This document shows, one piece after another, positions 21,590 to 25,469 of a DNA stretch of 64,000 nt. The stretch's first letter is position 1. The number at the start of each line of letters is the position of its first letter. The stretch is from Hydrotalea sandarakina (GTDB lineage: Bacteria; Bacteroidota; Bacteroidia; Chitinophagales; Chitinophagaceae). The notes beneath the pieces are model-generated. The model did no database searches, was not told the origin of the DNA, and was given only the letters and a program-made list of their open reading frames with translations. The stretch is from positions 248,001 through 312,000 of the forward strand of contig NZ_QKZV01000002.1 in assembly GCF_003254115.1 (NCBI RefSeq), in the 5' to 3' direction. A program made the position numbers and the translations under genes.

Positions 21590-22690
21590 TTAAAAAAGTG
21601 TACCCTGTGTACCCGGCCGCATAAATTGCTGCGTATTTAATTGCCAATGTTCGGCATTTAGTTGGTATTTGCGATTATAGGTTTTAAATTGTTGTTGTAC
21701 CAATGCCGCAATGGGGCCTTCGCCGCGCATTCTAACCCCCCAGCGGCTATCGTTTACCTGCCCGCCATGGGCTTGTTCAATTAAATGCCACACTTTATTA
21801 GCCCTGTCGGGAAAATTTTTAAACAGCCAGTCTTTAAACAAACTGCCAATGGCGCCATTTAGCCGAATAAAGGTATAGGCTGAAAAGCGTGCGCCTGCAG
21901 CGGCAGCTTTTTCCATAATGGGTTGCATTTCGTGTTCGTTTAAGCCGGGAATCATAGGGCCTAACATTACTCCGGTGCGTACCCCCATTTTGCTTAAAGT
22001 TTCAATAATGCGTAAGCGTTGGGTAGCGGTGGTAGTGCGCGGTTCCATTACACTGCGCAGGGGTTCGTTTAGTGAGGTAATGCTTACCAATACGCTTACC
22101 AGGTTTTTGGCCGCCATGGCTTGCAGTATATCTGCATCGCGTAATACGGCTGCATTTTTAGTAATAATGCCCACCGGCTGATTAAAACTTTGGCACACCT
22201 GTAATAATTGCCGGGTAAGTTTAAACTTTCGTTCGGCAGGTTGGTAGCAGTCGGTATTGCCGCTTAATACAATAGGTTGGCATTGCCAGCTTGGTTTCAT
22301 TAAAAAATGGCGCAGCAATTCCGGTGCATTTTGTTTTACCAATATTTTACTTTCAAAATCGGTGCCGGCGCTATAGCCCCAATATTCGTGTACATTCCGG
22401 GCATAGCAGTAAATGCAGCCATGTTCGCAGCCTTGGTATGGGTTCATGCTGTATAGCATGCCTACATCGGGGCTATCTACTTTGTTTACAATGCTTGTTG
22501 CTTTGGTAAAAATATATTGTGTAGGACAGTTGGTGTTTTCCCAATCATCTATGGCTTCAATATGCCATTTTTCGGTATGGTTTTGTAAAAAATGATTGGG
22601 GGTGTTTATTTGTGCCCCTCTGCCTTTCAGGTATTGCAGTGCTGCTTCTTTTTGGGCAGGTAAGGGTTGTTGATTGGGATTGCTGTTCAT
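21590..22690 (-). CDS. Rv2578c/PA0069-family radical SAM protein (SPL-like)
   Basis: 366 residues. The [4Fe-4S] cluster motif is CEHGCIYCYA, spaced C-x3-C-x2-C (Cys88, 92, 95), as in spore photoproduct lyase-like radical SAM proteins. Further family features are MNPYQGC before it, PIVLSGNTDCYQPAE and the C-terminal TFIRLNG. SPL itself repairs UV dimers; PA0069-type members have no proven substrate. Start set at ATG 22690 (MNSNPNQQ); an in-frame upstream start at 22837 would touch the UmuD gene but gives 49 residues of unlikely sequence. It lies 148 bases downstream of the umuD-like gene on the same strand. Confidence 0.85.
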   Translation of the reverse strand: MNSNPNQQPLPAQKEAALQYLKGRGAQINTPNHFLQNHTEKWHIEAIDDWENTNCPTQYIFTKATSIVNKVDSPDVGMLYSMNPYQGCEHGCIYCYARNVHEYWGYSAGTDFESKILVKQNAPELLRHFLMKPSWQCQPIVLSGNTDCYQPAERKFKLTRQLLQVCQSFNQPVGIITKNAAVLRDADILQAMAAKNLVSVLVSITSLNEPLRSVMEPRTTTATQRLRIIETLSKMGVRTGVMLGPMIPGLNEHEMQPIMEKAAAAGARFSAYTFIRLNGAIGSLFKDWLFKNFPDRANKVWHLIEQAHGGQVNDSRWGVRMRGEGPIAALVQQQFKTYNRKYQLNAEHWQLNTQQFMRPGTQGTLF

Positions 22691-22838
22691 GGTGTTGGTG
22701 GTTGTGTACAATAAATGTGTAATACTTTTTTTACACAAATGCCTGTTCGTTAGTAGCAGTAAATGCTGCCCCGTATTGTTGCAGTACAAGTGTGCGACGC
22801 AAGCGGTGCCGCATAGCACTACAAAAGCCGGTGACACA

Positions 22839-23339
22839 CTAATAATGAATGCCTTTTTTGTTGTTGCTATTGGGTTTGTTAATCGTTCCGCCCGATAATA
22901 ATCCCTTTTCTAAAATATGAATAACGCAGGTAACTACACCCCATATGTACTGCTCGCTAAATTCGGTAATTTCAATAGGGGCATAACGGCTGTTTTCGGC
23001 CAATAGGGTAGCGCGATTAAAATGCGTTTGCAACCGCCGCACCAATAGCTCACCGTTAATAGCCGCCACAATAATTTTGCCCGATGCTATGGGTACACTT
23101 CTGTCAACAATTAACACGTCGCCGCTATGAATGCCGGCCTCCGTCATGGCATCACCGTTCATACGGAAGAAGAAGGTAGCCGGCTTGTTCATAATCAGTT
23201 GTTCATTCAGGTCAATACCCCGTTCCATATAATCGTCGGCGGCAGCACCAAAACCATTGGCATTGGCGGTGGGAATGTGGTGTTGGGTAAAATCTTTACT
23301 GCCACGGTAGGCAGGCGTGTAGGCAATATTATCTATCAT
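22839..23339 (-). CDS. UmuD-like S24 protein lacking catalytic Ser and Lys
   Basis: 166 residues, full-length UmuD/LexA-type S24 fold: AAADDYMERGIDLNEQLI, ATFFFRMNGDAMTEAGIHSGDVLIVDRS-type core and GELLVRRLQ. UmuD cuts itself at Cys24-Gly25 with Ser60 and Lys97 before joining UmuC in DNA polymerase V. Here the aligned residues, with exactly conserved spacing (36 and 37 residues), are Asn28-Gly29, Ala64 (codon gcc) and Arg101 (codon cgg). Self-cleavage should therefore be impossible. It is divergent from the LigT-like and umuC genes with a dyad between. Whether it still binds UmuC is unknown. About 25 extra C-terminal residues follow the normal end. Confidence 0.85.
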   Translation of the reverse strand: MIDNIAYTPAYRGSKDFTQHHIPTANANGFGAAADDYMERGIDLNEQLIMNKPATFFFRMNGDAMTEAGIHSGDVLIVDRSVPIASGKIIVAAINGELLVRRLQTHFNRATLLAENSRYAPIEITEFSEQYIWGVVTCVIHILEKGLLSGGTINKPNSNNKKGIHY

Positions 23340-23367
23340 AAAAAAATATTTTGCTGTTTACTAAATT

Positions 23368-23389
23368 ATTTAGCAATTTTATGCTAAAT
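23368..23389. promoter_or_regulatory. 22-base dyad between umuD-like and LigT-like genes (operator candidate)
   Basis: ATTTAGCA (23368-23375), six bases, TGCTAAAT (23382-23389): a perfect 8-bp inverted repeat. It lies 29-50 bases upstream of the umuD-like start and about 19 bases before the chosen start of the divergent gene. Such a site would let one repressor control both directions. The protein that binds it is unknown. Confidence 0.55.
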
Positions 23390-23407: not shown

Positions 23408-23992
23408 ATGTTTATGCACACAGTATCATTAACAGCAACGGGGGCAGACAAGCTTCAACAAACAGCCTATTCATACAGTTTAGTGGTAGCCTTGCCCCAT
23501 TTTGTACAGCAAATGCTGCGGCAACAACAGGCATTTTTTACGGCACAATATGGGTATGTGTGTGGTGCGCCTAGGTTGTGCATAGCCCATTTTACTGCCC
23601 ACGAAGCCATGGAAGATACTTTGTTGCGTTACTTGCAACGCATTGCCGGTATGCAACATGCATTATCGGTAACATTAAACAATTACAGCAGTGTACCCGA
23701 ACATACCATATATGTACGTGTGCAACAACCTGTTTGTTTTCAGCAATGGATACAGGCATTACAACCCATTGATAATTATATTAGTGACAATGGTTTTCCG
23801 CATTTACAAACAATGCAACGTGCCCATATACCCCTTGCTGCAGCATTGCCGCCTAATGTGTACCGAAAAGCTGTTAGCCACTATGCACAGCAGGTGTTTT
23901 ATGCTTCTTTTATGGCAACGGAATGGGTATTGTTAAAATGTAAAAATAATTACAGCAATGAGGTACCGTTATGTAAATTTCATTTGTTGTAA
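23408..23992 (+). CDS. 2H phosphoesterase (2'-5' RNA ligase, LigT-like) family protein
   Basis: 194 residues. The first HxT motif is AHFTAHE (His61, Thr63). The second appears as RAHIPLAAALPP (His140, Pro142), in the place where relatives read HxT or HxS, so one catalytic Thr is replaced. These proteins act on 2',3'-cyclic phosphates or 2'-5' linkages in RNA. Start uncertain: ATG 23408 or 23414; starts further up lie inside the dyad. It stands between the umuD-like and umuC genes and probably shares an upstream control site with umuC. Family call by motif layout only. Confidence 0.65.
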   Translation: MFMHTVSLTATGADKLQQTAYSYSLVVALPHFVQQMLRQQQAFFTAQYGYVCGAPRLCIAHFTAHEAMEDTLLRYLQRIAGMQHALSVTLNNYSSVPEHTIYVRVQQPVCFQQWIQALQPIDNYISDNGFPHLQTMQRAHIPLAAALPPNVYRKAVSHYAQQVFYASFMATEWVLLKCKNNYSNEVPLCKFHLL

Positions 23993-24113: not shown

Positions 24114-25469
24114 ATGAATACACAACAAGTTAATACGGCACTGCCTGCAACAACGGCTGCCAATGCCGATAAAAATAAGGATATATGGTATGCTATTGTT
24201 GATTGTAATAGTTTTTATTGTAGTTGTGAGCGTTTGTTTAGACCCGATTTATGGAACCGGCCGGTAGTGGTGCTTAGCAATAACGACGGTTGTATTATTA
24301 GCCGAACCGATGAGGCTAAGCGATTGGGGATTGAAATGGCCGGTCCTTATTTTAAAGCCAAACCGTTTATTGAACAATATGGCGTAACTACGTTTTCCTC
24401 TAACTACAATTTATATGGCGACATGAGCAAGCGAGTAATGGATACTTTGCGCTTTTTGGTGGGCGAACAAAACACGGAAGTGTATTCGGTTGATGAGGCT
24501 TTTTTAGCCTTGTCGGGTTGGAAGGTTGCCGACTATAAAGCATTGGCTTTGCACATACGCAAAACGGTAGAGCGGTGGACGGGTATTTCAGTATCGGTGG
24601 GCATTGCCCCTACTAAAGTGCTGAGTAAAATGGCCAACCATATAGCTAAAAAAAATAAACAAGCCACGCAATGCGTATATGTGTTAGATACGCCTGAAGT
24701 AATACAGCAGGCATTAGCACGAACACCGGTAGGCGATATTTGGGGCATTGGCCGCCGTTATGCCGAAAAGTTGAACAACTTTGGTATTTATGATGCACTG
24801 CAGTTAAGTCTTATGCCCGAAAATTGGGTACGCAAACAGTTGGGCGGGGTTGTGGGTGCCCGATTGTTAAAAGAGCTAAATGGCGAACCGGCTATTGGGC
24901 TGGGCGATGAATTGGTTACCAAAAAAATGATTGCCACTACCCGCATGTTTGGTGTACCCGTTACGGAATTGCAGCAGGTAAAAGAGGCGGTAGCAACTTA
25001 TATAGCCCGTGCTGCCGAAAAGTTGCGTAGGCAAAAAAGTGTAGCATCGGTTATTACGGTATTTATGGTATATAAAGCCGAGCAGTTACCGGGTGGGCAT
25101 TTCAGGCATGGTCCTTCGGTAAGTGCTTCAGTAATATTGCCTAATGCCACTGCTAATACCAATGAGCTGATAAAGCCGGCTTTGCAATTAGCCGAGCAGC
25201 TGTATGCACCCGGCAAAATATACAAGAAAGCAGGGGTGCTGTTAAGTGGTATTATACCTGCTGAAGCGCCGCCCGGCAATTTATTTGTGCCGCCATCCGG
25301 TAATGCCAACGGTAAATTAATGGAAGTAATGGATAATATTAATGGAAGCATGCGGAATGATGTATTGCATTTTGCGGCCGGTGGAACCGGCCGCAACTGG
25401 AAAATGCGTCAGGAACTGCGCAGCCCCCGTTATACCGCCCGTTGGAAGGAATTACCCTTGGTGCAGTAG
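24114..25469 (+). CDS. umuC: Y-family translesion DNA polymerase UmuC
   Basis: 451 residues, catalytic subunit of DNA polymerase V. The palm carries VDCNSFYCSCERLF with the first catalytic Asp30 and YSVDEAFL with Asp127-Glu128. VSVGIAPTKVLSKMANHIAKK and the helix-hairpin-helix GDIWGIGRRYAEKLN follow, then the little finger, and the C-terminal DUF4113 piece ending ARWKELPLVQ, found in UmuC but not DinB. All catalytic residues are intact, in contrast to the divergent UmuD-like protein. About 20 N-terminal residues before the polymerase domain are extra. Confidence 0.94.
   Translation: MNTQQVNTALPATTAANADKNKDIWYAIVDCNSFYCSCERLFRPDLWNRPVVVLSNNDGCIISRTDEAKRLGIEMAGPYFKAKPFIEQYGVTTFSSNYNLYGDMSKRVMDTLRFLVGEQNTEVYSVDEAFLALSGWKVADYKALALHIRKTVERWTGISVSVGIAPTKVLSKMANHIAKKNKQATQCVYVLDTPEVIQQALARTPVGDIWGIGRRYAEKLNNFGIYDALQLSLMPENWVRKQLGGVVGARLLKELNGEPAIGLGDELVTKKMIATTRMFGVPVTELQQVKEAVATYIARAAEKLRRQKSVASVITVFMVYKAEQLPGGHFRHGPSVSASVILPNATANTNELIKPALQLAEQLYAPGKIYKKAGVLLSGIIPAEAPPGNLFVPPSGNANGKLMEVMDNINGSMRNDVLHFAAGGTGRNWKMRQELRSPRYTARWKELPLVQ

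Follow-up and report, generated by a model that had tools for sequence, protein, structure and literature searches.

The window analysed here, a stretch of 64,000 nucleotides from Hydrotalea sandarakina (contig NZ_QKZV01000002.1), contains a umuD-like gene (positions 22839–23339, minus strand) encoding a protein of 166 amino acids that matches Peptidase_S24 and in which the residues of self-cleavage are replaced. The working name iUmuD is used here for a UmuD-like protein of this kind; L-numbers denote related loci and G-numbers the genomes of relatives, both being labels of this analysis. A 2H-phosphoesterase-like gene (23408–23992, plus strand) is divergent from umuD and stands upstream of umuC (24114–25469, plus strand). 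Between the two divergent genes lies a predicted SOS operator (23359–23388, no strand assigned), and downstream of umuD there is a radical SAM gene of the PA0069 family (21590–22690, minus strand), the start of which has been set at an internal ATG. The longest open reading frame of this last gene starts at a GTG beside the umuD stop (22690–22837) and matches the family only from residue 71 onwards; the GTG is a less likely start than the ATG at 22690.

Loss of the self-cleavage residues

The match of iUmuD to Peptidase_S24 (PF00717, E 1.1e-23) is the sole Pfam domain of the window protein; the same scan gave no match to an N-terminal DNA-binding domain or helix-turn-helix (HTH). Against the UmuD model NF007621 the protein scores 133.5 bits, above the cut-off of 110. 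Its best PDB match is 1umu, to which the AlphaFold core aligns in Foldseek with a TM-score of 0.84 by target length and 40% identity, and the alignment with the E. coli UmuD' and UmuD chains 1umu and 8gmt (E 2.6e-22 and 6.1e-22) runs without gaps across the active site. What iUmuD has in common with UmuD is the S24/UmuD fold, a score above the family cut-off and a linked umuC; what it lacks is the Cys/Ala-Gly scissile bond and the Ser-Lys catalytic dyad. In place of Cys24-Gly25, Ser60 and Lys97 of UmuD it has Asn28-Gly29, Ala64 and Arg101. The former scissile bond is encoded at 23253–23258 (Asn28 at 23256–23258, Gly29 at 23253–23255), the position of the nucleophile by GCC (23148–23150) and that of the general base by CGG (23037–23039), all on the minus strand. 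The preliminary description had reported these three replacements within an ungapped active site, and both the alignment and the codons read from the sequence confirm them. The term 'autoproteolytic subunit' in the name of NF007621 is contradicted by the iUmuD sequences.

It had also been asked whether the genome holds a second, normal UmuD. An S24-family search of the whole genome (30 contigs totalling 3.27 Mb, with a stated completeness of 100) found none, the only other S24 place being an HTH-containing repressor that is described below.

Distribution and conservation among relatives

Relatives were collected in two ways. A contig scan gave 26 related loci; one of its six peptide patterns contains GDAM and hence favours Ala at the Ser position. 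A search of 196 relatives' genomes, which relied on whole-protein similarity, gave some match in 88, with scores that fall into two groups: 58 genomes reach at least 150 bits, all of them in the window's own family (Chitinophagaceae as named in the contig-scan records, including Terrimonas and Ferruginibacter), and the rest are weaker. The counts below use 57 of these 58 genomes together with the contig scan, which makes 76 distinct open reading frames above 150 bits. The strong relative outside the counts, G026, likewise has Thr, Ala and Arg at the three places.

Arg occupies the Lys position in all 76 iUmuD frames, and the Ser position holds Ala in 71, Ser in four and Thr in one, so that the Ala and Arg of the window are common to its close relatives, a point on which the preliminary description had called for a check. 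The P1 position is Thr in 67, Asn in seven and Ser in two, followed by a Gly corresponding to Gly29 in 76/76. Even the four Ser-bearing frames have Arg at the Lys position and neither Cys nor Ala at P1. Because the altered residues are common to so many distinct frames from many genomes, sequencing error or chance can be rejected as explanations. At the altered positions each of the synonymous codons is in use, four for Ala and six for Arg, and pairwise dN/dS is 0.016–0.10 in 19 of 28 iUmuD pairs (nine are saturated, and the values for pairs with dS above about 1.5 are rough). Synonymous codons in full use, together with low dN/dS, point to purifying selection on the altered residues.

These data bear directly on the suggestion that iUmuD is a dying gene which lost its catalytic residues by drift. 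There are observations that would agree with decay: G001, of the window's genus, shows no match; a diverged copy at L093 has a degenerate look; in some genomes of the family every UmuD is of the Ser/Lys type; and the L004 copy, from the same genus, stops early, in its C-terminal tail, where the core is not affected. Taken over the whole group, however, the conservation data speak against it, namely the dN/dS values, residues fixed in many genomes, the conserved operator and arm, and the co-inherited UmuC, and we regard decay as very improbable indeed.

Among 395 genomes sampled from the class, strong matches (at least 150 bits) were confined to seven, each from the window's family; the best match outside reached 114.9 bits and has Ser and Lys. 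In a UmuD tree of 124 rows, labelled according to the residues at the Ser and Lys positions (duplicates with the same core sequence had been removed, and the length limit excluded no row), a single branch parts 80 altered-residue rows from the other 44, with support of 93/87, or 97/92 when the long row L106 is left out. L106 comes from another family of the order (G132); it scores 78 bits, carries Asn in place of the Ser and Arg in place of the Lys, adjoins a umuC, sits on a very long branch and has no arm motif. It is possibly an independent loss. L106 was grouped with iUmuD in the UmuD tree and in the arm-position and arm-identity counts, and with the others in the UmuC tree. Another row, L015 (JASGCX010000007.1), bears the title Flavobacterium sp. 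MAG17 and nests among Chitinophagaceae rows of the UmuD tree; the title is therefore suspect, and the contig is possibly misnamed or misbinned.

A recent origin from a phage or plasmid was considered and rejected. There were 36 matches among 50,697 phage records, none at 60% identity or more, and none at that level among the best 5,000 plasmid records kept; the two plasmid sequences examined among the 40 matches listed both have Ser and Lys. A search of one library of open-licence papers gave no record of this natural uncleavable variant. iUmuD is thus a real, natural and conserved form of UmuD without the self-cleavage residues, and no oddity of one genome.

The UmuC partner and gene neighbourhood

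Since the labels of the UmuD tree derive from the residues in question, the UmuC tree, labelled by score and not by UmuD residues, is the better check. Here one branch separates 61 partners of iUmuD from 27 partners of other UmuDs (support 100/97). The UmuC of the window is a member of the clade that accompanies iUmuD and has the catalytic Asp and Asp-Glu; among the 61 partners D127/E128 are present in all and D30 in 60, with one gap. Only eight strong group-specific positions were found in UmuC, with no clear arm site among them. The claim that selection has favoured a non-cleavable form is accordingly supported, by Ala64 in 71/76 and Arg101 in 76/76, by the synonymous codons and low dN/dS, by the position of the group on one side of the UmuD tree and by a UmuC that is inherited with it.

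A umuC gene was seen at 66 of the 76 iUmuD loci, in tandem behind iUmuD at 62 and divergent at four (the window, L003, L011 and L055); at the remaining ten, several of which have short flanks, none was seen. The earlier statement that umuC is divergent from umuD holds for the window's genus, but it does not extend to the tandem majority of relatives. The 2H-phosphoesterase gene is divergent upstream of iUmuD in 61/76 loci, with two copies in 30, and in relatives its product belongs to the 2'-5' RNA ligase superfamily. Amongst the 2H proteins of five relatives, four pass the Pfam 2_5_RNA_ligase2 cut-off, whereas the copy at L003, from the window's genus, fails it (E 0.015); a Pfam scan gave no match for the window's own 2H-like protein. 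In this genus the gene looks degenerate, dN/dS being 0.21 between the window and L003. Radical SAM genes of PA0069 type, which we take to belong to the SplB group, are divergent upstream in 42/76 loci and lie behind iUmuD in 11, the window included. The published Bacteroidetes SOS regulon includes an SplB-type radical SAM protein as well as umuDC (PMC8565304).

The N-terminal arm

The first 28 residues of iUmuD (23256–23339, minus strand) form an arm with the pattern K-x-F-x-Q-x-[DE]-[VI]-x-T-A-N-A-[TN], in which the hydrophobic stretch is partly replaced; arm and following residues together read K-x-F-x-Q-x-[DE]-[VI]-x-T-A-N-A-T-G-F-G-A-A-A-D-D-Y. The conservation of the arm was assessed from the 14 residues before the old scissile Gly, the columns being counted back from this Gly without gaps. 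Where the cores of two proteins are 50–60% identical, the arm is 57% identical in iUmuD (1271 pairs) as against 27% in cleavable UmuDs (156 pairs), and it is the more conserved in iUmuD across core bins from 40 to 90%. The order is reversed in the two end bins: 18% in iUmuD and 24% in cleavable proteins at 30–40% core identity, and 79% (nine pairs) and 88% (four pairs) at 90–100%.

Of the canonical stretch, L/I-P-F/Y-F/V (FPLF in E. coli), iUmuD has lost a part. Positions –10 and –8 carry a hydrophobic residue in 84% and 86%, respectively, of 37 cleavable rows, but in 1% of 80 iUmuD rows, where –10 is Gln in 77/80 and –8 is polar in nearly all. V or I persists at –7 in 77 of the 80, and T or S is found at –11 in 55. 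In E. coli the hydrophobic stretch helps to keep uncleaved UmuD shut, and the triple variant T14A L17A F18A (3A; positions –11, –8 and –7) has a loose arm and mimics UmuD', according to the part of PMC5342242 that deals with these variants. It should be noted that, of the three 3A positions, iUmuD clearly alters –8 alone, together with –10 and –9. In AlphaFold monomers the arm of a cleavable control has two strands and that of iUmuD has none, with low confidence for either protein (arm pLDDT 49–58 and 36–42, respectively). Cleavage of UmuD exposes GFPSPA as the N-terminus of UmuD'; the corresponding segment reads GFGAAA in iUmuD, which means that any contact of iUmuD with UmuC is not simply carried over from UmuD' and would not be identical to it.

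Could a UmuD'-like form nonetheless be made by other means? An internal start giving UmuD' finds no support, residue 38 being Met in just 51/76, and the gene does not begin at the UmuD' terminus: the 28-residue arm is in frame from the ATG at 23339 and conserved in relatives. Alternatively, an unrelated protease might process iUmuD to a UmuD'-like form at the conserved TANA-T-G-F. The region of the old scissile bond is indeed amongst the most conserved parts of the protein, with Gly29 in 76/76. However, the conservation spans the arm, which cutting would discard, and the conserved site of the LexA-like repressor is itself Ala-Gly, a mild argument against cutting by the repressor. Processing by another protease is therefore, in our opinion, improbable.

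The operator and the LexA-like repressor

The predicted operator comprises a CTAA-N5-TTAG box, TACTAAATTATTTAGCA, at 23359–23375, 20 bases upstream of the iUmuD ATG, and a third half-site that extends to 23388. CTAA-N5-TTAG is the SOS box of Bacteroidetes and is bound by 'non-canonical LexA' proteins; umuDC is listed in the regulon, and the available portion of that paper contains nothing on missing UmuD residues (PMC8565304). The box occurs within 140 bases upstream of 68/76 iUmuD genes, whereas 100 dinucleotide shuffles gave 0.46 on average and never more than three. For 46 of these 68 genes the distance from the start codon back to the beginning of the nearest box is 30–34 bases. The eight genes without it are those of L017, L019, L023, L024, L026, L028, L046 and L074. 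The short pattern TRCTAA-N5-TTAGYA is not enriched in the genome, with three sites (before the repressor, before umuD and inside an open reading frame) against five for the backward control, and a regulon drawn from this pattern alone was rejected.

The LexA-like repressor of the window's genome is encoded at L002 (1378–2133, minus strand); it has 251 amino acids with HTH_3 and S24 domains, retains Ala-Gly, Ser and Lys intact, and has two CTAA-N5-TTAG boxes before its own start. A search for this repressor matched 110 of 117 genomes of the family. In the best-scoring 30 places, where the residues were examined, the cleavage motif (AAAGYL, AAAGYM or AVAGYL), GDSM and VYKR are kept in 30/30, and at least one box precedes the gene in 30/30. 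G001, from the window's genus, keeps the repressor (93% identical) yet has no iUmuD match. The repressor presumably binds the operator, and its cleavage residues and its own boxes indicate that the reading of damage through self-cleavage has probably been preserved at this protein.

The proposal, made in the preliminary description, that iUmuD is a DNA-damage sensor without proteolysis is not supported, because the promoter bears an SOS box of the Bacteroidetes type and the genome encodes this repressor with its cleavage site intact. A role as its own repressor or sensor is similarly unsupported, given that iUmuD has no HTH match and that a LexA-like repressor with intact residues is present. 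iUmuD is like the non-canonical LexA of Bacteroidetes in its S24 fold and type of operator, but the latter has an HTH and intact Ala-Gly, Ser and Lys (PMC8565304); its counterpart in the window's genome is the L002 protein. Acinetobacter UmuDAb is likewise a UmuD homologue with an altered role; it has an extra DNA-binding N-terminus and cleaves itself (PMC8565304), whereas iUmuD has neither an HTH match nor the residues.

Possible function of the uncut protein

Textbooks present the self-cleavage of UmuD as the safety catch of mutagenic replication in bacteria. Much of one large family from soil and water has lost the catch and kept both the polymerase and the SOS promoter, and so provides a natural test of the need for it. 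With the self-cutting parts lost, and with them the step that in E. coli switches on Pol V, an error-prone polymerase induced by DNA damage, activation in these bacteria is probably achieved in some other way. On balance, we think it somewhat better than an even chance that iUmuD is the small subunit of a translesion polymerase of Pol V type, a subunit which cannot undergo, and no longer needs, self-cleavage, and which is UmuD'-like and controlled at the level of transcription.

An E. coli-like system reads damage twice by self-cleavage, once at the repressor, for transcription, and again in the conversion of UmuD to UmuD'. In the proposed scheme the first reading would be kept, since the HTH-S24 repressor of LexA type has boxes both before its own gene and in the umuD / 2H-umuC promoter. 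The other reading would have been removed, the scissile residue, nucleophile and base having been replaced together with some of the hydrophobic residues that keep the arm on the core, and as a result of these replacements uncut iUmuD is probably born UmuD'-like. It would presumably form its dimer, enter the complex and be active without cleavage. In a published model of Pol V the arm of UmuD' lies in the Palm/Little-finger cleft of UmuC (PMC11791011, in the part that treats the model). The re-specified and conserved arm of iUmuD (KxFxQx[DE]VxTANATGFGAAADDY) probably touches the co-inherited UmuC in a comparable way, and may sit in the same cleft. Control would have moved to transcription, and perhaps also to the binding of RecA by UmuC.

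The chief evidence to the contrary comes from E. coli, where uncleavable full-length UmuD (S60A, K97A) blocks Pol V mutagenesis and holds UmuC at the membrane, as the parts of PMC3901139, PMC5342242 and PMC4552617 concerned with these variants report; loss of cleavage alone should consequently turn Pol V off. Also against an active, uncut protein are several points noted above: among the 3A positions only –8 is clearly changed, V or I is kept at –7, GFPSPA is altered to GFGAAA, the group-specific positions of UmuC include no clear arm site, the order of arm conservation is reversed in the end bins, and the AlphaFold evidence is weak. A rival reading is that iUmuD is a locked UmuD, a permanent inhibitory or checkpoint subunit that keeps UmuC inactive; UmuC would then be set free when iUmuD is degraded, for instance through Lon or ClpXP. 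Its changes mimic those of the inhibitory variants S60A and K97A, the arm, which in E. coli bears partner-binding sites, is kept and conserved, and a hydrophobic residue remains at –7.

Against a lock of this kind stand the loss of part of the arm's hydrophobic stretch and the distribution of other UmuD-like genes. In 49 of the 58 iUmuD genomes no second UmuD-like match was found, and three have a weak one (G054, G082, G085); four (G061, G065, G070, G073) have an extra UmuD'-like gene with Met directly before GFPSP, and in two (G048, G089) there is a Ser/Lys UmuD besides. Were iUmuD a locked inhibitor, UmuC would in most of these cells be catalytically intact yet lack a visible activating subunit, for which reason we favour an iUmuD that is active uncut. 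We therefore regard a locked inhibitor as possible, although unlikely, and a UmuD'-like subunit working uncut as the best reading. The earlier idea of a permanent regulator of Pol V can stand in general terms, but is not favoured as regards an inhibitor, given the partly lost arm stretch and the intact acids of UmuC.

How a UmuD'-like uncut subunit compares with known systems can be set out briefly. With E. coli UmuD/UmuD' (NF007621), iUmuD has in common the fold, the pairing with umuC and an SOS-type box; it differs in being without the scissile Cys/Ala, the Ser and the Lys, and in its altered arm. HumD reaches its active form without cleavage. In this respect iUmuD resembles HumD and UmuD'-like proteins (NF051876), but it keeps the 28-residue arm and scores 66.5 bits against a cut-off of 120. 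It is like E. coli S60A and K97A in being uncleavable, while 3A, with its loose arm, is a mimic of UmuD' (PMC5342242 and PMC4552617, in the parts devoted to these proteins). Those variants are engineered, and S60A and K97A are inhibitory, whereas iUmuD is natural, combines both uncleavable changes and has a different, conserved arm. iUmuD also separates what the arm does from what its removal does, for which the E. coli work relies on mostly inhibitory mutants.

A possible second route to cleavage-free UmuD

At six loci (L090, L094, L102, L110, L112 and L118) there is a UmuD frame with Met directly before FPSP or one residue earlier; L118 could also start at an earlier Met, which leaves five clear cases. 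All six fall outside the iUmuD side of the UmuD tree, so that the Chitinophagaceae seem to have given up the cleavage step on two or more occasions. A broader proposal, which we put forward tentatively and rate at somewhat less than an even chance, is that in this family the switch from UmuD to UmuD' in Pol V has been deleted and replaced by a non-proteolytic one, in which a conserved arm that is never removed gates or positions UmuC directly, and that cleavage was lost by two separate routes. The six frames have Arg at the Lys position in 6/6, and their Ser position holds Ala three times, Ser twice and Asn once.
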